Positions 11,809-50,521 of a DNA stretch of 58,785 bases are shown here, piece by piece; position 1 is the stretch's first letter; every line of letters begins with the position of its first letter. Source of the DNA: a virus; IMG/VR virus record IMGVR_UViG_3300021507_000132, positions 1-58,785 of that record, one strand, 5' to 3'. A program made the position numbers and the translations under genes. The notes beneath the pieces are model-generated. The model searched no databases. It was not told the DNA's origin and saw only the letters and a program-made list of their open reading frames with translations.

Positions 11809-11988
11809 AATATTAATTCTTCAACTATTTATATTATGTTTTTTGCTGAGTCTTGGTAGAACTCTATTTATTTATGGATTCACTTCTTGTTTGGTAATTT
11901 TAACCTCATGAGCGGGAAGTCTCCTCCCTTCAAGAAGGGGATGAGAGCGAACCATAAATAATTTATAAATTTGGGTTATATAAATATT

Positions 11989-13113
11989 ATGGTAACCAAA
12001 ATGAAAACAACATATAAATTCAGGTTATATCCAAAGAAAGAGCAAGAAGAAAAACTAATAAGAACACTTGATATATGCAGAGATTTATACAACTATTTGC
12101 TTTCAGAAACAAGGAAAAGGAAGATACATAGATATGAAATACAATCAATGTTGGTTTCTTTGAAAAAAGATAGGAGAGAATTAAACGAAGTTTATTCAAA
12201 GGTATTGCAGATGGTCGTATTTATGCTATCACACAACCTAAAAGTATTACACCGATTAAAGAAAAAAGGCAATAAGGTTGGTAAATTGAGATACAAAAAG
12301 AAGTTCAAGTCATTTATATACAATCAATCTGGTTTCAAAATCATAAAAACGGGTAAAAGATTGGATATATTGAGATTGTCAAAAATAGGGGATATACCAA
12401 TAAGATTACATAGAGATATAGAAGGAAACATAAAACAGACAATAATCAAGAGATACAAATCTGGCAAATGGTTTGCTCTCGTTTGTGTTGATGGTATGAA
12501 AAATAAGGAAAGCGAAAATAATAGAATTGTTGGTATTGATGTTGGTGTAAAATACTTCCTAACAGATAGCGATGGGAGACACATAGAAAATCCAAGATTT
12601 TATGAAAAACTATTGAATAGAATAAAAATAGAACAGAGAAAACTATCAAGAAAGAATAAGGGTTCTAAAAATTGGGAAAAACAGAGAAGAAAATTAGCAA
12701 AATTATTTGAAAAACTTGTAAATAAAAGAAACGATTTTCTACACAAACTATCTAAATTCTATGCTAAAAACTACAAAATCATTTGTGTCGAGGATTTGAA
12801 GATAAAGAACATGGTTAAAAATAGAAATCTTGCACAGAAAATACTTGATGTTTCTTGGGGTGTTTTTATAAGACTGCTATCCTACAAGGTTGAAAGAACT
12901 GGTGGGATGGTGGTTAAGGTAAATCCAAAAAACACCTCAAGAGAGTATAAATTTGGAAAACTTGATAGAGATTATAATGCCTCTCTGAATATAATGATGA
13001 GAGGTTTATCGGGGTTGGGACAACCCTTTGTGCCTGTGGAGATAACACCTCTACGGGAACTCAAGTTAGTTCCCGCAAGTGTCATTGTTGAAGCAGGAAG
13101 CCCCATCCTTTAG
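11989..13113 (+). CDS. tnpB: TnpB RNA-guided nuclease, zinc ribbon missing
   Basis: About 374 aa from the ATG at 11989; a second ATG at 12001 is possible, and a TATAAAT-type promoter lies just upstream. The order is the N-terminal YKFRLYPKKEQEEKL signature, then RuvC motif I GIDVGVKYF, motif II CVEDLKIKNM and motif III DRDYNASLNI, so all three catalytic acids are present. The usual CxxC...CxxC zinc ribbon between motifs II and III is absent: the text jumps from NPKNTSRE to YKFGKLDRD. Its last codons encode VIVEAGSPIL, normal for the family. TnpB cuts DNA guided by the RNA from the element's right end. The ribbon loss could reduce or alter activity. Confidence 0.85.
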   Translation: MVTKMKTTYKFRLYPKKEQEEKLIRTLDICRDLYNYLLSETRKRKIHRYEIQSMLVSLKKDRRELNEVYSKVLQMVVFMLSHNLKVLHRLKKKGNKVGKLRYKKKFKSFIYNQSGFKIIKTGKRLDILRLSKIGDIPIRLHRDIEGNIKQTIIKRYKSGKWFALVCVDGMKNKESENNRIVGIDVGVKYFLTDSDGRHIENPRFYEKLLNRIKIEQRKLSRKNKGSKNWEKQRRKLAKLFEKLVNKRNDFLHKLSKFYAKNYKIICVEDLKIKNMVKNRNLAQKILDVSWGVFIRLLSYKVERTGGMVVKVNPKNTSREYKFGKLDRDYNASLNIMMRGLSGLGQPFVPVEITPLRELKLVPASVIVEAGSPIL

Positions 13114-13820: not shown

Positions 13821-14696
13821 TTAAAACAAGCCGTCGGTTAGTGGCGGTTCATCAATATGTTGGTGATTCAGCTTTTCTTCCACGTACGGCGGTCTTATCG
13901 GCAAACCTTTTAGTTTTCTCGCAACGACATAGTAGTGAACCAGAAACCTTTTAACCATCTTTCGCATTGCTCTCCTGTGTATATGCAAAGGCTTCAATTT
14001 CAAATCTGTAACTCCATAGCTGTTAGGATATTTCGCATGAAGTTCTCCTGGTTTGAATTCCATTGCTTCCAATCTTTGTTTTTCTTTGTCATATATTTCC
14101 CGATAATAAGGCGTCCTTTGCTTTAGAAAACTGTCTCCGATCAACCAACTAACAACTTTAGCTCTTGGTCTGTATTGTGCTTTTTCTCCTCGCTTTCTTA
14201 CTCTTGCTTTTCCGTCTACAACGTCAAGACCTGCAAATTTCCATATGCTAGAGGGCGATTTTGCCTCCTCGCAATAACCGAAATTTCTAATCAAATTAAT
14301 TGCCAAGACCTTGGAAATTCCTCTAATTCTTTGTAACCACTGCCATATTGGTTCGTGAGCCAAGAACTCGTCCATTAATTTCAAGCATCTCTTTTCAAGT
14401 CTTTTGGTTTCGTGAGCAATCTGCGTAAATTCTTCTATAAAGCACTGCTCTTCTTTGCTTAATTTGCCTTGTTTTTTGACTATCTCTTTAAGTAGAAATT
14501 CAAGATTTTTGTCTATATATCTATTAATATATGCTTTGTCTTCTTTCCTGTCTTCTGGTATGTTCAACGGCAAATCCTCATATCTCCTTCTGATAAGGTT
14601 TCTGATTCTACTGAAGTTGGCTATCCTCGCTGCCTGGTGTCCGTAGTATACATTTGCTATTATTGTTGCCATTTCCACATTTGGTTTTGGTTCCAT
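13821..14696 (-). CDS. IS110-like C-terminal (Transposase_20-type) protein, stand-alone
   Basis: 291 aa. Residues about 120-275 match the helix-hairpin-helix domain of IS110/IS116/IS902 transposases: LQRIRGISKVLAINLIRNFG, then SPSSIWKFAGLDV, RKRGEKAQYRP and a C-terminal HRRAMRKMVKRFLVHYY. The N-terminal DEDD (RuvC-like) half is replaced by a helical region, and the Gln-Ser-Gly segment expected after the Gly-Leu motif is VDGKARVRKRG, so the catalytic serine seems lost. It is probably a domesticated DNA- or RNA-binding protein rather than an active transposase. It has its own class A promoter and is followed by array A. Confidence 0.65.
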   Translation of the reverse strand: MEPKPNVEMATIIANVYYGHQAARIANFSRIRNLIRRRYEDLPLNIPEDRKEDKAYINRYIDKNLEFLLKEIVKKQGKLSKEEQCFIEEFTQIAHETKRLEKRCLKLMDEFLAHEPIWQWLQRIRGISKVLAINLIRNFGYCEEAKSPSSIWKFAGLDVVDGKARVRKRGEKAQYRPRAKVVSWLIGDSFLKQRTPYYREIYDKEKQRLEAMEFKPGELHAKYPNSYGVTDLKLKPLHIHRRAMRKMVKRFLVHYYVVARKLKGLPIRPPYVEEKLNHQHIDEPPLTDGLF

Positions 14697-32681: not shown

Positions 32682-33611
32682 TTATAATTTCTGATTTTGT
32701 TTTTTGAATTTTTTTCCTATTTCTTGTCCAATTCTTTTTTTAACAGCTTTTTCCAGTTTTTTTAACATTTCACTATCAAAATCTCCTTTTACTTTTAGTC
32801 TTTCCATAAACCAATTTACAACTCTCGCAGTCTTTTTGCTTATGTCTTCTCTAGTGCCAATGCAAGCTCTTTCTACTAAATCAAGATATTCTTTAAATTC
32901 TTTGTCTGTGAATCCTGCCTTTAATCCAAGTTCTGGTTCTGCATAACCTTGTAATACATGATCTAATATCACGTTTTCTGGTCTGGATTTCGGAACTTTC
33001 TTTATCACTTTTTTAATCCTGTCTTTAAACTCTTCAGGACAATCTTCCCATTTGTATTTCAATATTTTATTTCCGTCTACGGATTTCAAAACTACACCTT
33101 CGCAATATTCTGGCAATTTTTTCATTTCCTTTTTCAGTTTTTTCAGATTGCTAAACAAACCAATATTTCCAATAAAGTTCAAATCAAAAGTCTTACAGAG
33201 ATTTTCAACGACTTCAGCATTCAAAAACCTTGTCTTTTCTGGTCTTCTCAAATTCATGATGTCAAAAACAAAATAGTCAAAATCTTTATCACCTTTATAA
33301 TTGCTCATTGTATTCTTGCCAACAACTTCCATTACAAGCACTAGATTGGGATAGACTCTGAAAAACCTTTCCAGTTTCTTGCCAATGTTTTCTCTTATTA
33401 GATTGTTGGTCTTTTCGTCAATTAAACCACCTCTCAAAAATGCCACCCAATCTTTATCTACTTTTGCTACTCTCACGTTGTAACCGTTAATCTTCTGTTG
33501 AGCAAACATTGGTTCTTCTAATTTCACTAAATGCAGTAATTTTGGATACGGAGGTATAATTGTGTCTCCCACTTTTACTCTCCCCAAACTGCTTATTATT
33601 TCTGCTCTCAT
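32682..33611 (-). CDS. ATP-dependent RNA ligase, Pab1020/Rnl3-like
   Basis: 309 aa from the ATG at 33611, which overlaps the stop of the TFB-like gene (ATGA). K40 in KINGYNVRV is the nucleotidyl lysine; FLRGG, LVMEVVG (motif III), EGVVLKS (motif IV) and ILKYKWED (motif V) follow. Together these match the archaeal Rnl3 group. The helical C-terminus (CIGTREDISKKTARVVNWFME) corresponds to that family's dimerisation domain. It would join or circularise RNA ends and could repair host- or defence-cleaved tRNA. Confidence 0.75.
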   Translation of the reverse strand: MRAEIISSLGRVKVGDTIIPPYPKLLHLVKLEEPMFAQQKINGYNVRVAKVDKDWVAFLRGGLIDEKTNNLIRENIGKKLERFFRVYPNLVLVMEVVGKNTMSNYKGDKDFDYFVFDIMNLRRPEKTRFLNAEVVENLCKTFDLNFIGNIGLFSNLKKLKKEMKKLPEYCEGVVLKSVDGNKILKYKWEDCPEEFKDRIKKVIKKVPKSRPENVILDHVLQGYAEPELGLKAGFTDKEFKEYLDLVERACIGTREDISKKTARVVNWFMERLKVKGDFDSEMLKKLEKAVKKRIGQEIGKKFKKQNQKL

Positions 33612-34195
33612 TTTAATTCCAAACAATCACAAACTTTCCTAAGTCTGTAATAAAGATTAGGAATTTCGGCAGCAGAAAATCCATTCACGCTGTTTAACAA
33701 ATCAACAAATTCACTTTTGGTTTTGACAAGTCCTGCTTCTGCCATTGCCAAATACAAAATTGCCAAAGAAGTATACTTTGAATACAATAGAGAATATTTG
33801 CCTTGTTCTCTTATCAACTTCAAATAATAATTGGCTTTCCTTTTTACTTTGCCATTGCATTTTAACAATTTCTCATATTTTTTCAAAAACTCGTCAGCAG
33901 AAGCTGGTCTTACATTCAGATTTATTGTTTGTTTGATTTTTCTGCTCACTTTAGAAACTCGTCTGACGGGTGTATTTGCAATGCTGCTTAAATCCGAAAT
34001 TGCAACAGGATAATTCAAAGACCTTAAACCAACATACACCAATCCGCAAGCTATATCTTTAGTATCATGCAAAGCGATAAATTTTTCCTTAACAATTTTC
34101 TCATATAAATCTAATACTCTCTGCTTTTGTTTTTTATTGACTTCTAATGCTGCAAAAATATGTTCCAAATGTTCCAATATATTCTTGTTTCTCAT
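33608..34195 (-). CDS. TFIIB/TFB-like transcription factor (cyclin repeats only)
   Basis: 195 aa with two cyclin repeats: the first with KDIACGLVYVGLRSLNYPV and an HTH-like ISDLSSIANTPVRRVSKV; the second with LYSKYTSLAILYLAMAEAGLV. Host TFBs have an N-terminal zinc ribbon that binds RNA polymerase; none is present here. It may therefore compete with host TFB or work with another factor. A class A promoter lies 22-44 nt upstream, so it may regulate itself. Co-transcribed with the RNA ligase. Confidence 0.7.
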   Translation of the reverse strand: MRNKNILEHLEHIFAALEVNKKQKQRVLDLYEKIVKEKFIALHDTKDIACGLVYVGLRSLNYPVAISDLSSIANTPVRRVSKVSRKIKQTINLNVRPASADEFLKKYEKLLKCNGKVKRKANYYLKLIREQGKYSLLYSKYTSLAILYLAMAEAGLVKTKSEFVDLLNSVNGFSAAEIPNLYYRLRKVCDCLELK

Positions 34196-42550: not shown

Positions 42551-43591
42551 ATGAAATACGAAACTAAGTACGGGGTAGTGGAATTAAAGGCTTTGGAAAG
42601 TGGTTTTGAGCTGGTTTCGACAGTGCCTTTCAAGAAATACTCAAGACAATTTGGCAGTAATGAATACAATAAAGCTGTTAAACAATTCAAGCAAGTGAAA
42701 AAAGACGTAGAGAAAGTCATTAAGGAAATGGAAACTGTAAGAAAAACTGTTGTTAGCAGCAAATCTGTCATAAATAAACAGCTGAACAGCATAATGAAGA
42801 AAGGTTTTAAGAAGATATTGTTGTATGGGCCAACTGGAACTGGTAAAACATATACAGTAATTGAAATGTTGAAAGAATTGAAAAAGCAGAAGAAGTTGGA
42901 CGACTATTTGGTGGTGACATTCTCGTCAGGAATGGAAGATATTGACATATTAGGCAAGTTCATTCCTGACTCTGGAAAAGTAATAAAGTTCCAGCCAAGT
43001 GAATTGTATGAATTCATGAAGAAAAATAAAGACAAAAAAGTAGCAATAGTGTTTGATGAGTTTAACAGAGCAAACAGCAGAACTTTGAATATACTAATTC
43101 CGATGTTGGATGGTAGAAACGGCGAAGTAGTAATAAATAATTTTATAAAAGGAGAGACAGTAGCAATTCCAGAGAATAATGTTTCATTCTTGTTTACAGC
43201 GAATTTTGGAGCGAGTTATTCAGGGACATTCAGTTTGGATGAAGCGATTTTGAATAGAATAGATTTGTGTGTATTTTGTGATTATCAGAAAGAAGTTGAA
43301 GAAGCAATAATGGATGAGTTGCCAAAAGACAAAAAGAAATTATTGAAAGAAATAGTAGACTTCTTTAGAGATGCATTCAAGCAAGGCATGATACATCCAT
43401 TTACAACTAGAGATTTAAAGAATTCAGTAGTGTTAATGCAATCAGTTTCTATGGATTTGGATGGTGTGTTTGAGGGTTTGAAGCCAGTATTGGACAAATT
43501 AGTGAAAGTAGACCCGCAGGGTTATCCAGACACAGAGTTTTATAAGGAGTTTAAAGAGTTTTTGAAAGAAAAGATAAAAAGCAAAAAGTAA
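42551..43591 (+). CDS. MoxR/CobS-like AAA+ ATPase
   Basis: 346 aa. N-terminal helical region (about 40-80), then AAA+: Walker A GPTGTGKT at 93-100, Walker B IVFDEF at 166-171 with NRAN following, sensor-type FLFTANFG, and an arginine-containing LNRIDLCVF. MoxR-type ATPases act with a VWA-domain partner to remodel or insert metal into protein complexes; the partner gene follows immediately. First gene of the ubiquitin-like cluster. Confidence 0.75.
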   Translation: MKYETKYGVVELKALESGFELVSTVPFKKYSRQFGSNEYNKAVKQFKQVKKDVEKVIKEMETVRKTVVSSKSVINKQLNSIMKKGFKKILLYGPTGTGKTYTVIEMLKELKKQKKLDDYLVVTFSSGMEDIDILGKFIPDSGKVIKFQPSELYEFMKKNKDKKVAIVFDEFNRANSRTLNILIPMLDGRNGEVVINNFIKGETVAIPENNVSFLFTANFGASYSGTFSLDEAILNRIDLCVFCDYQKEVEEAIMDELPKDKKKLLKEIVDFFRDAFKQGMIHPFTTRDLKNSVVLMQSVSMDLDGVFEGLKPVLDKLVKVDPQGYPDTEFYKEFKEFLKEKIKSKK

Positions 43592-43633
43592 TTTTATTTT
43601 TTTTAGTTTTTTTCAAACTTATTGTTTTTGAAT

Positions 43634-44902
43634 ATGAAAAATATAAATGTTGTAAAAGATACAATTCCTTTTGGTTATGCCAAATCATACATATACAAGC
43701 AAGCATTAAACAGACTATCACCATATTTTGTGCATTATCAGCATGAAAGAGCTGCTTATTCTGATTTAATGAGTAATATTATATATTTGCCATTCATTGA
43801 ACCATTAGACTTTGGTGATTTAAAAGTATTGTTAGAGCATGAAGAAGGTCATTTCAAAATTACAAAAGAAGATGCAAAAGTGCCTGTAAGCTTAGATATT
43901 ACAAAAGCAAGAAAGGTTTTGAATATTTTGGAAGATATGCTGGTAAATGAAAGTATACCTAGAAATAGATTAGAAAGAGTATTCAAAAAATTGGGTGGAG
44001 AAAGTTTACAAATCACATTATGGAGCCAATACAGCAAAGACGAAAAAGAAAGAGTTGTAAATAGATTAAAAGGTAAATTATTTAAAGATTTAGACACTAA
44101 AGAAATAATAAAAACAATTGAAACAACAATAAAAGACAGAAAGTCTTTTGATGGTGTAAATAGATATGTAAACACGCATTTTGAAAAATTTAAAAAGTTT
44201 TACAATATATTTAAAAGTGATTTACCTAGAGACATACCTGGTAACGGTCCCGCAGAGTATAATTCAGGTTATTATTTACCAGATGTCGGGCTTACAAACA
44301 AATTCAGAAAAATATTTCAAAATTTAAAAGTTGATGTAGAATACATTGGAAACAAAGAGCAATTTTATGGTAAAAGAATAAACAGAAAATATTTAGAAAG
44401 CTTGGTATGTCTTAAACCATTTCTACAACGAGTCAGTTCTCATATATTTTCAAGACCTAAAGTTTTGTTGTTATTGGATTGTTCTGGAAGCATGATAGGG
44501 CAACCAGAAATAAAAGCAAAAAGTTTCATAGCAGCTTGTTTAGATACTCTTGATGCTACTCTTATAGGGCATAATCAATATTATCATGTTGTAACAAAAA
44601 ACAAAACTGAAGCAAGCAAACTGCCAATGACTGGAGATGAATGTTTTGACAAATTGAAACCAGAAGATTATAGCAGTGATGTATTTGTTGTAATTTCAGA
44701 TTTAGACATAAGCAGTGGTGAAGCAAGAGGTTTGCTTAGATTTGGAAAGCATGTTAAAGCGAAATATAAATATTTATTGGTTTGCTCAACTGATTATTAT
44801 TCTGCTTATCCTAGTTTAAATGAAGTTTATAAAAGGCATTTTGTTGGTGATCCAAAACAGTATATTGAATTTGCTAAAAAATTGACAAACAATTTAATAT
44901 GA
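43634..44902 (+). CDS. HExxH metallopeptidase-like + VWA protein (CobT/DUF2201-like)
   Basis: 422 aa from the ATG at 43634. HEEGH at 69-73 with a downstream EDMLVNE that may supply the third ligand suggests the putative metallopeptidase of DUF2201 proteins. The C-terminal VWA domain carries the MIDAS DCSGS at 282-286 and VVISDLDIS. In known pairs the MoxR ATPase drives the VWA partner. Here the pair opens a cluster of ubiquitin-like genes, so they may act together on tagged proteins (inference). Confidence 0.7.
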   Translation: MKNINVVKDTIPFGYAKSYIYKQALNRLSPYFVHYQHERAAYSDLMSNIIYLPFIEPLDFGDLKVLLEHEEGHFKITKEDAKVPVSLDITKARKVLNILEDMLVNESIPRNRLERVFKKLGGESLQITLWSQYSKDEKERVVNRLKGKLFKDLDTKEIIKTIETTIKDRKSFDGVNRYVNTHFEKFKKFYNIFKSDLPRDIPGNGPAEYNSGYYLPDVGLTNKFRKIFQNLKVDVEYIGNKEQFYGKRINRKYLESLVCLKPFLQRVSSHIFSRPKVLLLLDCSGSMIGQPEIKAKSFIAACLDTLDATLIGHNQYYHVVTKNKTEASKLPMTGDECFDKLKPEDYSSDVFVVISDLDISSGEARGLLRFGKHVKAKYKYLLVCSTDYYSAYPSLNEVYKRHFVGDPKQYIEFAKKLTNNLI

Positions 44903-45207
44903 GTTGGGAAACATTGGTTGTTGGACATATCCAGTTTAAAGAGAAAATAGACAGAAAAGTGAAGAAACAAATACTAGAAGAGTTAGAAGAAGTCGTTGAA
45001 TGCGAAATAAAATATGACAGAAAATGGCATGAGTACGCATTTCAAGACGTTAATTGGACATCTCACGTCTCTGGTGAAAATATAGTGAAAGTGATTGAGA
45101 AATACAAAAAACACATAAAATACATTGCTGTTTCAGTGTTTTATTTAAATGAACCGCACGAGAATATTACAATGGAAGATGGAGAATTGAAAGCACGTTT
45201 AATTTAG
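44899..45207 (+). CDS. 102-aa hypothetical protein
   Basis: ATG overlaps the stop of the VWA gene. Alpha/beta with two beta-alpha-beta units (LVVGHIQFKEKIDRKVKKQI, then HIKYIAVSVFYLNEP), ferredoxin-like in layout. No family recognised; in the Ubl cluster by position. Confidence 0.45.
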   Translation: MSWETLVVGHIQFKEKIDRKVKKQILEELEEVVECEIKYDRKWHEYAFQDVNWTSHVSGENIVKVIEKYKKHIKYIAVSVFYLNEPHENITMEDGELKARLI

Positions 45208-45250
45208 TCCAAAAATTTGCGATTTTCTGGATCATGCTTATCGCTTGAAT

Positions 45251-45454
45251 ATGGAAAGTCTAAATATAAAGAATTGGAAAAAATTGTCAGAAGACGAAAA
45301 ATTTGACAAAATAATTAAAGCACTAACAGAAGAAAAAACACTGATTGTTGATGGAAAAGTAGTAATAAGCAGCAAAAACTATGTATTGTTTGATTTTCTT
45401 GCGAGCAACTTAGAGATATTTAACAGAATCCTTCATGAATGGCATTTGTATTGA
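45251..45454 (+). CDS. 68-aa hypothetical protein
   Basis: ATG at 45251 in a TTGAATATG context. Helical start (KLSEDEKFDKIIKALTEEKT), beta middle, aromatic end. Unknown. Confidence 0.4.
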   Translation: MESLNIKNWKKLSEDEKFDKIIKALTEEKTLIVDGKVVISSKNYVLFDFLASNLEIFNRILHEWHLY

Positions 45455-45456
45455 AA

Positions 45457-45591
45457 ATGGAAGAAGATTGGGAAAATTTTAAGTTGAGTGAAGAAGAAGA
45501 GAAGTTTGAACGGGGATTAATCAGTCAAAAAGAGTATGCGAAGTATGTAAAGAAAAAGTTGAAGAAAGTTTTTGAAAAAGTAGAATTATAA
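45457..45591 (+). CDS. 44-aa SHOCT-like miniprotein
   Basis: MEEDWENFKLSEEEEKFERG, then LISQKEYAKYVKKKLKK. Paralogue of the 39569 gene. Follows the previous stop by 2 nt. Its stop lies inside a palindromic operator. Confidence 0.45.
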   Translation: MEEDWENFKLSEEEEKFERGLISQKEYAKYVKKKLKKVFEKVEL

Positions 45592-45603
45592 CACTGTTAT
45601 AAT
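45585..45603. promoter_or_regulatory. palindromic operator, copy 3
   Basis: ATTATAAC-ACT-GTTATAAT, perfect arms; the exact reverse of the 49683 copy. It precedes the tandem small genes and the Ubl. Confidence 0.6.
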
Positions 45604-45609
45604 CTTAAA

Positions 45610-45635
45610 GCCAGACAGTCAATTGGCTGTCTGGC
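45610..45635 (+). other. 9-bp hairpin before the tandem genes
   Basis: GCCAGACAG / CTGTCTGGC around an 8-nt loop, 10 nt before the ATG at 45646. Similar in size and place to hairpins at 46392 and 46741. Confidence 0.5.
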
Positions 45636-45645
45636 GAGATTGAAT

Positions 45646-45894
45646 ATGGAAGCCAAAACTATATGGAACATCAGAGAGTTGAAAAAAGAAAGAGGAGGAA
45701 TAAAACGATTTAGAGTGTATTGGAGTGAGACAAAAACAGATGTAAAGCGTGGTTATAGCATTGTAGAAGCAGCAAACGAAGACGAAGCTGAACGGGCATT
45801 TTGGCATGGAGACATTATTGATGAAGTAGAAGAAGACATTGATGTGGGTTGTTGGGAAGATTTACAAGTAGATGAGATTGAAGAAATTGATTGA
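45646..45894 (+). CDS. tandem paralogue 1 (DpnD/PcfM-like layout)
   Basis: 82 aa from the ATG at 45646. Shares with the next two genes the plan: N-terminal (W)NI(R/K)ELK, FRVYW strand, ...SIVEAANEDEAERAF (the V-x-A-x-(D/E)-x-E-A block seen in small DpnD/PcfM-type proteins), and an acidic end (VDEIEEID). Highly acidic. Possibly a target, adaptor or anti-defence protein; not proven. Confidence 0.5.
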   Translation: MEAKTIWNIRELKKERGGIKRFRVYWSETKTDVKRGYSIVEAANEDEAERAFWHGDIIDEVEEDIDVGCWEDLQVDEIEEID

Positions 45895-45896
45895 AT

Positions 45897-46133
45897 ATGA
45901 TAGACAAAACTGTATGGAATATAAAGGAATTAAAGGGTGAAAAAGAAGAAGGTACAAAGTTGTTCAGAATAGATTGGACAGAAGAATATAGAGATTATGG
46001 TCATGCAATTGTTAGAGCAAGAAACATAGAAGAAGCTAAAAAGAAGTTTTTGGAAAATGATTGTGAATCTAATGACGTAGATGATTCAGAGTTCATTGAC
46101 AGTTGGATAGATGAAATTGAAGAAATAAATTGA
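45897..46133 (+). CDS. tandem paralogue 2
   Basis: 78 aa, stop-to-start spacing 2 nt (TGA-AT-ATG). AIVRARNIEEAKKKF and ending DEIEEIN align with the neighbours. Acidic C-terminus. Confidence 0.5.
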   Translation: MIDKTVWNIKELKGEKEEGTKLFRIDWTEEYRDYGHAIVRARNIEEAKKKFLENDCESNDVDDSEFIDSWIDEIEEIN

Positions 46134-46147
46134 ATTGAAGAATGAAT

Positions 46148-46363
46148 ATGGTAAAAAAATTAAAAAGCAAAAAAGAAAGTGGTTTGAAGACATTTGAAGT
46201 GAAATGGACGGTAGAATGTAGAAAACAAGGTCACACAATTGTTAAAGCACGAGACACAGGCGAAGCTAAAAAGAAATTTTGGGCAAATGATTGTAAAGAT
46301 GACATAGTAGATGATGAAGAATTCATTGATTGTTGGATAGATGAAGTTGAAGAAGTAGATTAA
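46148..46363 (+). CDS. tandem paralogue 3
   Basis: 71 aa from the ATG at 46148. TIVKARDTGEAKKKF and DEVEEVD match paralogues 1 and 2; the N-terminal WNI part is lost. A T-rich terminator-like tract (46364-46389) follows, then a hairpin and the Ubl gene. Confidence 0.5.
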   Translation: MVKKLKSKKESGLKTFEVKWTVECRKQGHTIVKARDTGEAKKKFWANDCKDDIVDDEEFIDCWIDEVEEVD

Positions 46364-46389
46364 TTTTTGTTTTGTTTTTGCTTTTTTTG
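46362..46389 (+). terminator. T-rich terminator-like tract before Ubl
   Basis: TTTTTGTTTTGTTTTTGC then TTTTTTTG: long U tracts of the kind that end archaeal transcripts. A similar one lies at 46709-46738 after the Ubl gene. Confidence 0.4.
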
Positions 46390-46391
46390 AA

Positions 46392-46419
46392 GCCCTAGCA
46401 GTGATATTGCTGCTAGGGC
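46392..46419 (+). other. 10-bp hairpin in the Ubl leader
   Basis: GCCCTAGCAG / CTGCTAGGGC with loop TGATATTG, perfect. It is followed by A6 and a GGTGA ribosome binding site before the ATG at 46435. May mark a processed or re-initiated 5' end. Confidence 0.55.
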
Positions 46420-46434
46420 AAAAAAGGTGAAAAC

Positions 46435-46695
46435 ATGGAATGGAACGTCAATCCAAATAGAGTGACAGTAACTATACAGTTGCCAGAAGGCACATACACT
46501 AAAGAGTTTGACAGGAATACAAAATTGGCAGATGCAGTGATGGAAGTAGCACAAGAATACAATTTATCTAATGTTACTGTTAGAGATTCCAACGGTATGG
46601 AACTTGATGATAGTGAAGAAAACAAAAATAAAACTTTAGGAGCATTGGGAGCAGTAACAATATCAGCAAAAACTGTGGGAGCTGGCTTTCAGTAA
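46435..46695 (+). CDS. beta-grasp ubiquitin-like protein (Ubl)
   Basis: 86 aa, GGTGA ribosome binding site. Beta-grasp layout: strands RVTVTIQLPEG and TYTKEFD, helix KLADAVMEVAQEY, strand NVTVRDS, then TLGALGAVTISAKTVGAG. It ends GAGFQ, not the usual GG; a two-residue trim would expose AG, and a terminal Gln recalls Pup/UBact-type tags. The cognate JAMM peptidase and E1 lie 0.8-2.1 kb downstream, supporting a protein-tagging or sulfur-carrier role. Confidence 0.65.
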   Translation: MEWNVNPNRVTVTIQLPEGTYTKEFDRNTKLADAVMEVAQEYNLSNVTVRDSNGMELDDSEENKNKTLGALGAVTISAKTVGAGFQ

Positions 46696-46740
46696 TTGAA
46701 AGCCATAATTTGTTTTTTTGTTTTTTTAATTTTTTTGATA

Positions 46741-46765
46741 CTCCAATAGCGACATGCTGTTGGAG
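46741..46765 (+). other. 10-bp hairpin before the E2-like gene
   Basis: CTCCAATAGC / GCTGTTGGAG with one G-U pair and loop GACAT. It contains an in-frame ATG (46754); the ATG at 46775, after the stem, is the more likely start. Confidence 0.5.
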
Positions 46766-46774
46766 CAAATTAAC

Positions 46775-47497
46775 ATGGATTGGAAACTGGAAGTTGAAAA
46801 AATAAATAAGTTAAAAGAAGAAAATAAAAGATTAAAGACTGAGTTAGAGGCTACAAATAAAGCATTAGCAGTAGAAACAACAAATAAACAGTATTTAAAA
46901 GAAGAAATAGCACAATTAAAGCAACAATTACACGAAATTGAGTCTAAATATCAATTAATACATTATAGAGCAGTTCCAGAGTGGCTTACTAATGAAGATA
47001 TGATAAAGCATAATATCATTTTAATGCCGTTTAAAGGTTGTTTGTATATATTGAAGAAAGCAGATATTGTTATTAACAGCATAAAATTTTGTTATTCTGA
47101 AAAAATACACAAGTTGCCAAAAGTATATCATCTGCCTAATAAGTTGTATATTGGGTTATGTATAGCAAATAACAGTGTAGTTCATAGTGGAGTATTCTTT
47201 AAAAATCACAAATTATCTAGGTATATTTTTGCTCATTCTGATGATTATATATGTGCAACTTATTCTACTAATATTTCAAGTTTAGAAGATTATTTAAGAG
47301 CAATCAAGTTTATTTTAATGAGTTTTGAAACGTTAAATTTGCAATCTACATTTGACCCTCATCGTTTTAATAAGAGTTTTAAAAAGATATTTCTTGACAT
47401 TTTAAATGAAGCTATTAAATTTGCTCCTCGTGAAGCAAAAGGAGTAAATGGTGTGCTTTGCGTGAATAATCATGAATTTGACCCTGAAACTATCTGA
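46775..47497 (+). CDS. coiled-coil protein with candidate E2-like domain
   Basis: 240 aa from the ATG at 46775. Residues 1-65 are a coiled coil. The rest has an E2/RWD-like order: KLPKVYHLPNKLYIGLCI, later FAHSDDYICATYSTN (possible catalytic Cys after a His, compare HPN...ICL), then a helix SLEDYLRAIKFILMSF and STFDPHRFN. The gene stands exactly where an E2 is found in bacterial Ubl operons, between Ubl and JAMM. The match is by pattern only; it could instead be a novel partner protein. Confidence 0.45.
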   Translation: MDWKLEVEKINKLKEENKRLKTELEATNKALAVETTNKQYLKEEIAQLKQQLHEIESKYQLIHYRAVPEWLTNEDMIKHNIILMPFKGCLYILKKADIVINSIKFCYSEKIHKLPKVYHLPNKLYIGLCIANNSVVHSGVFFKNHKLSRYIFAHSDDYICATYSTNISSLEDYLRAIKFILMSFETLNLQSTFDPHRFNKSFKKIFLDILNEAIKFAPREAKGVNGVLCVNNHEFDPETI

Positions 47498-47499
47498 AT

Positions 47500-48240
47500 A
47501 TGTCGTGGGAAATAGATAATGAAGATAAATTAGTAAGCGAAAAGTGTCCAGAAATGGAAAAAGAAGGCAAAGAAGTTGTGTTAGAAAATAATGTAGTTGG
47601 CAAAATAATCACATTGTTGAACAAGTATCCAGATTTGGAATGGGGTGCGTATTTGATTGGTGAAGAACAAAAAGACAAATTTTTGATTAAAGATTTGACA
47701 TTAATGAAGCAAGAAGTAACTGGAACAACAGTAGAATTTGTAGAAGAGGATTTTCCAAAGAATTGCATTGGCTGGATTCATAGTCATAATTCAATGGACG
47801 CATTTCTGTCAAAAACAGATGTAAAAACAGCAATGCTGTATAAAGTGTCAATAGTAGTAAATAATGCTTTGAATTTTGTTTGCAGAGTTAAAAAGCAATT
47901 GCCTTGCGGCAGAGTTACTTTAGTGCCTTCAAAAGTAATATTACAAGGCATAGATGTTGATACAAGCAAAATTGTTGAAAAACCAAAGAAAGAATCTATT
48001 GTAATAGTAGACCAGTCATTTCAAAATATTTGTCCAGTTTGCGGTTGCAAATTGAGCAGAAGAAAGAGCAAATTGGCTTATTGTCCTCATTGTCGCAATT
48101 TTGTTCATAGGAGGTGTTTTAATGAAGAGTGGAATATGTGTGCTAACTGCGTAGAAATGTTTAGCAAAGATGAAAAAGAAAGATCTAGAGATTTGTGGAG
48201 AGAGTATTTTAATGAAGATTATCTTGACTTCTACTATTAA
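47500..48240 (+). CDS. JAMM/JAB deubiquitinase-like peptidase fused to RING-like zinc domain
   Basis: 246 aa. JAMM core: E47 in EWGAYLIG, then H94-S-H96-x7-S104-x2-D107, the full zinc-protease signature. Linker 150-172. C-terminal zinc domain with C178, C181, C183, C195, C198, H203, C206, C214 and C217, a binuclear treble-clef (RING/Prok-RING-like) spacing. The JAMM would process the Ubl tail or remove tags; the RING-like part could recruit an E2. Gene start follows the previous stop by 2 nt (TGA-AT-ATG). Confidence 0.8.
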   Translation: MSWEIDNEDKLVSEKCPEMEKEGKEVVLENNVVGKIITLLNKYPDLEWGAYLIGEEQKDKFLIKDLTLMKQEVTGTTVEFVEEDFPKNCIGWIHSHNSMDAFLSKTDVKTAMLYKVSIVVNNALNFVCRVKKQLPCGRVTLVPSKVILQGIDVDTSKIVEKPKKESIVIVDQSFQNICPVCGCKLSRRKSKLAYCPHCRNFVHRRCFNEEWNMCANCVEMFSKDEKERSRDLWREYFNEDYLDFYY

Positions 48241-48245
48241 AGAGT

Positions 48246-48821
48246 ATGGAAAAAATTGTAATAATAGGTTGTGGTGGTGTGGGAAGCAGAATTGCTGAGT
48301 TTTTAGTCAGAGACAATTTAAGAGAAAAATTCATGGACATGCTTTATTTAGTAGATCATGATACTGTTGAGTTTAAAAATCTGCAAAGACAATTCTATTT
48401 TCAGCAAGACATTAATTTCAAAAAAACAGAAGCTTTAAAAGCCAGATTAAAGAGCATAGACCCAGATTTGGTAATAGTTACTCACAATATACAAGTAAAC
48501 AAAGACAATATAGCGTTGTTTGACAGCAAAATGTTTTGTTTTTGTTGCACTGACGACATTAATGGGAAAAGAGCGATTTCAGAGCATTTTGAGAATTATA
48601 TAATAGCAAGCGTTGATAGAGATGTTGTTGAAATTACTGTAAATCCTGGGTATTTAAATGTCTGGTCTTTTGGAACAGGTTATTCAGTTTATCAAGATGT
48701 TGTAAATAACAATATGGCAGCTATGATTGCGTTTAAATTGTTTAAAAATTATTTGAATGGTATGGAATTGAAAAATGTAAAACTAAATATAAAAGAATTA
48801 ATTGAAAGGTCTATTTCGTAA
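48246..48821 (+). CDS. minimal E1/ThiF-like adenylating enzyme
   Basis: 191 aa. Rossmann ATP site IGCGGVGSR (GxGGxG at 8-13), D37 in YLVDHDTVE, N45 and R48 in NLQRQF, and CTDD at 101-104, where the Asp pair coordinates Mg-ATP. It is shorter than most E1s and lacks a separate catalytic-Cys domain; C100/C101 before TDD are the nearest thiols. It would adenylate the Ubl C-terminus. 5 nt after the JAMM gene. Confidence 0.8.
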   Translation: MEKIVIIGCGGVGSRIAEFLVRDNLREKFMDMLYLVDHDTVEFKNLQRQFYFQQDINFKKTEALKARLKSIDPDLVIVTHNIQVNKDNIALFDSKMFCFCCTDDINGKRAISEHFENYIIASVDRDVVEITVNPGYLNVWSFGTGYSVYQDVVNNNMAAMIAFKLFKNYLNGMELKNVKLNIKELIERSIS

Positions 48822-49738: not shown

Positions 49739-50521
49739 ATGCTATATCAATATGAATTGTTAAGAGAATATATAGAAGTATGGAAAAAAAGCAAGGATAT
49801 TCATGGACTGCTTGTTAGTGGGCCAGTAGGTCTAGGGAAAACCTGGTCTGTGGAACAAGCTTTAAAGAATGAAGAATATGTATTAATAAACACTCATATA
49901 ACGCCATTAAAGTTGTATATCAATTTGTATGAAACAAGAAATTCATATTTGGTTGTAGATGATGTGCTGGATCTGTTTAAAAACAAAGACACGAGTGGTT
50001 TATTGATAGCAGCAACTCAAACTGGGACCAAACCAAGAATATTGACGTGGCATACAACTTCAGAAAAATTAGAAGTTCCGCCTCAGTTTGAGTATAACGG
50101 TAAAATTGCGATAATATGCAATAAATTACCTGTGCATTTAGAGCATTTAAAGTCAAGGTGTTTCTATTTTGAATTGAAATTGAATTACAATGAGATATTG
50201 GCAAAATTGGAAGAAATACGCAAAAGCATGAGAATGCCTAAGAAATTATTAGAGTTTATAAAAGAAAATACAAACGAAGCAACTCCTGAAGAAGTATTAA
50301 ATATAAGATTGCTAATCAAATTAAATAGTTTATACAAAAAATACCCTAAAAAATGGAAAGACATGGGTTTATATTTGATTAAACAAGATAAAAGGTTATA
50401 CATTCTTAAAAAGATATTGGATAAGTATGATAATGTATCTGACCAGATAAAAATGTATGAGCAACTGACTGGCAGGAAAAGAAGTTCATTTTATAAAGAC
50501 AAGCAGGAATTAAAATTATGA
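49739..50521 (+). CDS. AAA+ ATPase, replication/loader-like
   Basis: 260 aa. Walker A GPVGLGKT at 28-35 and Walker B YLVVDD at 70-75; sensor-like AIICNKLP; a C-terminal helical part ending in an HTH-like LTGRKRSSFYKDKQEL. The size and layout fit DnaC/IstB- or Orc-like helicase loaders of viruses. No polymerase or helicase gene is visible nearby, so it would recruit host machinery. Operator copy 4 controls its leader. Confidence 0.65.
   Translation: MLYQYELLREYIEVWKKSKDIHGLLVSGPVGLGKTWSVEQALKNEEYVLINTHITPLKLYINLYETRNSYLVVDDVLDLFKNKDTSGLLIAATQTGTKPRILTWHTTSEKLEVPPQFEYNGKIAIICNKLPVHLEHLKSRCFYFELKLNYNEILAKLEEIRKSMRMPKKLLEFIKENTNEATPEEVLNIRLLIKLNSLYKKYPKKWKDMGLYLIKQDKRLYILKKILDKYDNVSDQIKMYEQLTGRKRSSFYKDKQELKL

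Follow-up and report, generated by a model that had tools for sequence, protein, structure and literature searches.

The window analysed here is the whole of IMG/VR virus record IMGVR_UViG_3300021507_000132, a complete record of 58,785 bp with a GC content of 33%. Four genes on its plus strand (46435-48821) probably constitute a compact, virus-encoded cassette for the reversible conjugation of a ubiquitin-like protein (Ubl). In operon-like contiguity they encode the Ubl, a protein lying in the E2 slot, a JAMM metallopeptidase and a minimal E1. The observation itself is real, and its interpretation as a cassette, which we consider probably right, is carried by a Ubl modelled as a beta-grasp fold, an intact JAMM core and adenylation site, the contiguity of the genes and the retention of the gene set in other viruses.

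A first-pass annotation of this DNA had described a virus-borne Ubl cluster of six open reading frames (ORFs), encoding a MoxR ATPase, an HExxH-VWA protein, the Ubl, the E2-slot protein, the JAMM protein and the E1. All six were located on the plus strand, where they lie in one run with gaps of no more than 72 bp; Pfam families match the MoxR, JAMM and E1 proteins. The Ubl/E2-like/JAMM/E1 portion of that cluster stands, and no extra gene occurs within it. Three other parts of the description are not supported: the membership of the MoxR/VWA pair, a kinship with Bil and with the cyclic oligonucleotide-based antiphage signalling system (CBASS), and a single isolated capture.

The Ubl gene (46435..46695, plus strand) encodes an 86-aa protein with a predicted single beta-grasp domain and the C-terminus ..SAKTVGAGFQ. 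The protein has no match in the protein-family libraries; its AlphaFold model, built with an alignment of phage relatives, shows a strand-strand-helix-strand-helix-strand topology (predicted local distance difference test score, pLDDT, 82.8; predicted template modelling score, pTM, 0.68), and a Foldseek search of the PDB with this model returned ubiquitin, ubiquilin and SUMO as top matches, with the bacterial Ubl-deubiquitinase complex 8tyx among them. Model and matches bear out the beta-grasp assignment made at first pass, which we hold with confidence as a structural prediction. Relatives described below keep a Ubl gene beside their JAMM and E1 genes. Neither of the two results that would have spoken against the first-pass reading, a Ubl of another fold or JAMM/E1 genes consistently devoid of a Ubl neighbour, was thus obtained. 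The window Ubl can be aligned with 19 phage Ubls, the majority of which end in K-x-x-N-A or K-x-x-N-G.

The E2-slot protein (46754..47497, plus strand; 247 aa, with a probable start at M8, position 46775) has an N-terminal coiled coil followed by a C-terminal domain containing H161-x5-C167. When the protein is aligned with 33 members of a phage E2-slot family, H161 coincides with a His that is nearly invariant in that family and C167 with its invariant Cys. E2 family D (PF14460 / PRTRC_B) gave no library match in the window, and hhalign to an E2-D alignment likewise gave none. A regular expression written for the core of E2-slot proteins missed the window protein itself and was not used as evidence. 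Mainly from its position and motif, the protein is moderately likely to be an E2. The E2 slot named at first pass is a matter of position, between Ubl and JAMM; an E2 fold is supported by neither the libraries nor structure prediction.

The third gene (47500..48240, plus strand; PF01398, E=2e-7) encodes a JAMM metallopeptidase (E47, HSHNSMDAFLSKTD) that continues at its C-terminus into a RING-like zinc domain. The core residues E47 and H94/H96/S104/D107 are all intact, and the tail presents eight Cys/His zinc ligands in the arrangement CPVC-x13-CPHC-x4-H-x2-C-x7-CANC; scanned alone, this domain matches Prok-RING_1 with an E-value of 0.0023, below cut-off. The fusion of an intact JAMM motif to a RING-like domain was therefore read correctly at first pass, with the RING family match sub-threshold. 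The JAB match starts at residue 23 and leaves no room for an N-terminal JAB-N domain. The last gene (48246..48821, plus strand) encodes a minimal E1/ThiF-type adenylyltransferase of 191 aa (PF00899, E=8e-22), in which the adenylation site is complete (GCGGVG, D37/D39, R48, K60 and TDD). Adenylation and proteolysis are thereby supported by the residues, as predictions from sequence.

Single-protein scans of viral sequences with the E1 and JAMM proteins returned nothing, and alignment-based scans succeeded (related contigs and loci carry L-numbers as labels in this analysis). A tblastn search with the window E1 pointed to three phage records in which Ubl-type genes lie close by. Vibrio phage D69 (L008:1391-5948) has a PRTRC-like operon of a triple Ubl ending in TGTKG, an E2 family D protein, a JAB protein and an E1, in which the JAB matches PRTRC_A at 4e-20 and the E1 matches PRTRC_ThiF at 6e-18, both below the curated cut-offs; Salmonella phage Arash (L009:82-4514) has a single Ubl with the same enzymes and is also PRTRC-like. 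The third record, faecal phage MT835544, represents a further cassette type, and an alignment-based scan brought up 46 viral loci, nearly all of this third type. In the gut/rumen-type phage loci (L007 and L011-L056) the order Ubl (free or fused)-E2slot-JAB-E1-reverse transcriptase (RT) occurs in 40 of 47, for example at L011:4969-10264. With comparable cassettes so widespread in tailed phages, the single isolated capture suggested at first pass is not upheld.

The E2-slot protein of these phages is a coiled-coil protein of about 480 aa (for example L011:5762-7213), with a Cys absolutely conserved in 39 of 39 members in the context PNPH-x5-C. The family has no consistent Pfam match, and a sequence search of the PDB returned coiled-coil and chance matches alone; its profile aligns weakly with that of true E2-D proteins (P=0.039), with the cysteine at the centre of the alignment. 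Some 20 of the phage loci encode a Ubl that runs on into another domain, of about 130 aa, across a conserved VVKADNA-A junction, which suggests a JAB cleavage releasing the Ubl. The downstream RT carries a TRYADD motif, and its best PADLOC model is retron RT_II-A; in L007, PHROGs recognises the E1 and the RT alone. Many phage cassettes also have palindromic hairpins of about 54-115 bp, which follow the RT gene within about 30-130 bp (L047:10121-10196, L038:5198-5311, L021:9875-9938, L031:9954-10007, L032:10276-10344, L034:10125-10178, L046:2981-3050 and L013:10211-10296) and are candidates for a structured RNA used by the RT. The window shares with the gut-phage cassettes the gene order, an E2-slot protein with a coiled coil followed by a putatively equivalent His/Cys motif, and a non-GG Ubl tail. 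It differs from them in that theirs have the longer E2-slot protein, a later Cys in the E1, a JAB without a CxxC tail, the downstream RT and an E1 clade of their own; no RT was found among the ORFs downstream of the window E1.

The nearest relative of the window cassette, found in a scan with JAMM relatives, is on a 161-kb viral contig, L100 (IMGVR_UViG_3300027917_000020), in which the JAMM protein is 38% identical (E=6e-16) and the E1 matches with E=2e-11. Like the window, L100 has a Ubl, a coiled-coil E2-slot protein with H-x5-C, a JAMM protein and a short E1, which has no Cys after CTDDD; unlike the window, its order is Ubl-E2-E1-JAMM, its JAMM has an N-terminal zinc finger and no C-terminal RING, and it has no match to the window MoxR. 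No description of this four-gene set was found in the literature or libraries used. A further contig of 95 kb, L101, encodes a JAMM, an E1-like protein and a small protein containing YHPQIGIGNFC. Separately, a genome scan returned some thiamine-type ThiF loci, such as L058 with thiamine-type neighbours, and an Archaeoglobus metagenome-assembled genome contig (L067:2963-5384) in which genes for a Ubl-E2-like fusion, a JAB and an E1 follow one another; this is an operon of cellular archaea and differs from that of the virus.

Among cellular systems, Bil has an ISG15-like Ubl with two beta-grasp domains, and the window differs from it in having a single 86-aa beta-grasp protein and no tandem Ubl. 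It likewise differs from CBASS type II (Cap2-Cap3) in lacking an E1-E2 fusion: in a PADLOC scan covering the six cluster proteins, the 191-aa E1 matched just the E1 part of the E1-E2 models. The relationship to Bil and CBASS put forward at first pass is consequently not supported, the nearest relatives being viral or PRTRC-like. The nearest known operon type in gene content is type 6d, one of the bacterial types 6a-6e that Iyer et al. 2006 (PMC1779556) defined together with the Ubl/JAB tail genes of lambda-type phages. The window has in common with type 6d (PMC1779556)/PRTRC operons a beta-grasp Ubl, an E2-like protein, a JAB and a separate E1 in one operon, and the JAMM motif HSHNxMxAFxSxTD is very close. 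Unlike them, the window has no detected E2-D (PF14460), no JAB-N domain and no alpha-helical gene, and its Ubl tail is GAGFQ versus TGTKG; the highly conserved C-terminal glycine of the type 6d/PRTRC Ubl would have a counterpart in the window if FQ is trimmed. Bacterial FtsH-ternary vWA-MoxR conflict systems, with Ubl, RING and JAB components, Ubl-E2 fusions, FtsH and a propeller-vWA (PMC7159879), resemble the window in placing MoxR/vWA beside a Ubl, a JAB, an E1 and a RING-type domain; in the window, by contrast, the Ubl and E2-slot protein are separate ORFs and the VWA protein has HExxH and no beta-propeller, and neither FtsH nor EAD1 effectors were seen among the window proteins scanned. 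Borg elements of archaea encode JAMM deSAMPylases, and one Borg has a SAMP (PMC12660748). Beyond the lambda-type tail genes, neither an archaeal virus with the four-gene set nor a phage Ubl-RT cassette was found described in the open-access literature, subscription literature being outside the scope of the search.

Upstream of the cassette lie a MoxR-type AAA+ ATPase (42551..43591, plus strand; AAA_5 E=2e-14, Walker A GPTGTGKT) and its partner, an HExxH metallopeptidase-VWA protein (43622..44902, plus strand) with HEEGH at 73-77 and a metal ion-dependent adhesion site (MIDAS) motif, DCSGS, at 286. The Pfam VWA match is sub-threshold (VWA_2 E=0.21), and a 37% identical VWA relative retains both the HEEGH-type and MIDAS motifs. 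An adjacent pair of this kind is present in viral contig L002 (IMGVR_UViG_3300026512_000018), with identities of 44% (MoxR) and 37% (VWA); it was the sole relative recovered in viral scans with either protein, whether single-sequence or aligned. L002 has one other clear protein match to the window and no E1 or JAMM match, although the contig starts just upstream of MoxR and its 5' neighbours are unseen. The window MoxR had no match in 47 viral records with Ubl-type genes (43 + 4), in a search whose query recovered L002 as positive control; the window VWA had none in 43 such records, and a search of 393 genomes of an archaeal phylum, run with no positive control, returned no VWA match. The pair alone in L002 and the Ubl-type records without it argue against the single system drawn at first pass. 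In group 2.2 jumbo phages a MoxR/vWA pair that includes an N-terminal metallopeptidase has been proposed to act in virion assembly, as in Acidianus two-tailed virus (PMC7824862), and haloviruses also carry vWA/AAA pairs (PMC7911831). Likened by description, the jumbo-phage pair (PMC7824862) agrees with that of the window in the adjacency of MoxR and VWA and in the N-terminal metallopeptidase motif of the VWA protein, and the pair of Acidianus two-tailed virus in the adjacency of MoxR and VWA. Since such pairs are known from jumbo phages, Acidianus two-tailed virus and haloviruses, this portion of the finding is ordinary in kind and already described. The MoxR/HExxH-VWA pair most likely acts independently of the cassette, as a module of assembly chaperones. 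Between it and the Ubl gene, three small paralogous ORFs stand in tandem (84, 80 and 73 aa; 45640..46363, plus strand), with similar cores, acidic tails and no Pfam family above cut-off.

The minus-strand half of the genome holds a structural module of tailed-virus type, with a major capsid protein, portal, large terminase and tail proteins; the Ubl cassette is separated from these genes by more than 10 kb and belongs to the accessory half. Near the tail genes are a TnpB-type transposase (11971-13113), to which copies in archaeal genomes show up to 58-59% identity, and an inserted ORF with a weak IS110-type transposase match (13821-14696). A TFIIB-like repeat protein (33608-34195; PF00382, E=5.5e-5, just under cut-off) suggests virus-encoded transcription control. 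The best match of the capsid protein in the phage collection is an Altiarchaeum virus (32% identity over 82%), and it is 40% identical to its counterpart in a contig from an archaeal genome bin, which holds further matches to proteins of the structural half. An archaeal host is supported by these sequence matches, because the TFIIB-like repeat, the Altiarchaeum virus capsid match, the archaeal-bin contig and the archaeal TnpB copies all point to it; together with the structural module they agree with the tailed virus of an archaeon recognised at first pass. Shortly downstream of the E1, an AAA-type protein (49739-50521) matches PHROG 1250, of unknown function (E=3e-28).

For the mechanism of the cassette, we infer E2 chemistry, Ubl transfer, C-terminal processing and an E3-like or RING role as follows. 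The JAMM protein would trim the Ubl C-terminus near ..GAG-FQ, KTVGAG-FQ being the position that matches the phage fusion junction, and the minimal E1 would then adenylate it. Cys167 in the coiled-coil protein of the E2 slot would receive the activated Ubl, presumably by direct transfer from the Ubl adenylate (Ubl-AMP), since the E1 has no later cysteine, and the Ubl would then be joined to proteins of the host or the virus. An E3-like or substrate docking role may fall to the RING-like tail of the JAMM, and the JAMM itself may later strip the tag from substrates. Proteins of the host or of rival elements are slightly favoured over virion modification as targets, given the place of the cassette in the accessory half and its distance from the structural genes.

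Several observations weigh against this reading. The Ubl ends in GAGFQ and not in GG, and its glycine would be terminal solely if FQ is trimmed. In a profile comparison with the phage Ubls it ranks first of the 303 ORFs of the window, yet with an E-value of only 0.33, so that its kinship to them is weak by score and is carried by fold and position. Profile support is not significant for the E2-slot protein either: hhalign against the phage family gave P=0.024-0.039, with 19 of 300 shuffles equally good, no significant family match was found in the libraries scanned, and the core of its AlphaFold model, built with 33 relatives, is unreliable (pLDDT 60). The cysteines of the window E1 are at 9, 98, 100 and 101, with none after 101, and the later VSAC-type Cys segment, which 46 of the 48 related viral E1s retain, is missing; the E1 motifs called intact at first pass are so in the adenylation residues and not in this segment. 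Finally, in a tree of E1s, 47 phage E1s form a clade (99/92) that excludes the window E1, which sits on a long branch; its membership of the phage clade is ruled out by this tree, to which long-branch caution applies.

The E1 also invites a different reading, in which a ThiS/MoaD-like Ubl acts as a sulfur carrier, the E1 is MoeB/ThiF-like and the JAMM processes or recycles the Ubl with no protein conjugation. The E1 is indeed minimal and ThiF-like, matching NF006395 with an E-value of 6e-26 (below cut-off), lacks the later Cys and is placed beside thiamine-type E1s with weak support. We nevertheless regard a sulfur carrier as rather unlikely: the neighbourhood showed neither sulfurtransferase nor biosynthesis genes, a conserved-Cys coiled-coil protein and a JAMM-RING fusion stand between Ubl and E1, the Ubl has no GG, and the four-gene set is kept in relatives.

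The close spacing of all genes on one strand, and the annotation of the Arash E1, E2 and other neighbouring products as "structural protein", would fit a virion-assembly or maturation machine, in which MoxR, HExxH-VWA and the Ubl cassette jointly remodel capsid or tail proteins with the Ubl as a removable tag; this is unlikely, given that the MoxR/VWA and Ubl genes are separable in both directions and that the cassette is distant from the structural genes. That the cassette is a degenerate, inactive remnant of an acquired Ubl operon is very unlikely. The shortened E1, the very divergent E2-slot protein and the latter's lack of a reliable core model could be taken in that sense, but the four ORFs are intact, the JAMM, zinc and adenylation residues are kept, and L100 has the same short E1 form.

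The conjugation cassette seems to belong to a wide viral repertoire that is for the most part unannotated. We suggest tentatively, as a possibility falling a little short of an even chance, that tailed viruses of bacteria and archaea own an unrecognised class of Ubl operon, with a non-GG Ubl, an undescribed coiled-coil E2 family, a JAMM and an E1, which is mostly coupled to a retron-like RT in gut phages, and that the archaeal virus uses a reduced form of this operon, with a JAMM-RING protein and an E1 without the later Cys, to tag proteins of the host or of rival viruses. Bil and CBASS-linked conjugation are bacterial Ubl defences against phages; if the suggestion is true, viruses across bacterial and archaeal hosts would write ubiquitin-like tags as well as remove them. 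A similar gene set occurs in dozens of unrelated gut phages and is barely recognised by protein-family libraries, so viral use of Ubl tagging may be far commoner than thought. The phage cassettes linked to an RT hint at a phage system yet to be characterised, and four small proteins would make it possible to test how ubiquitin conjugation arose and what its minimal form is.

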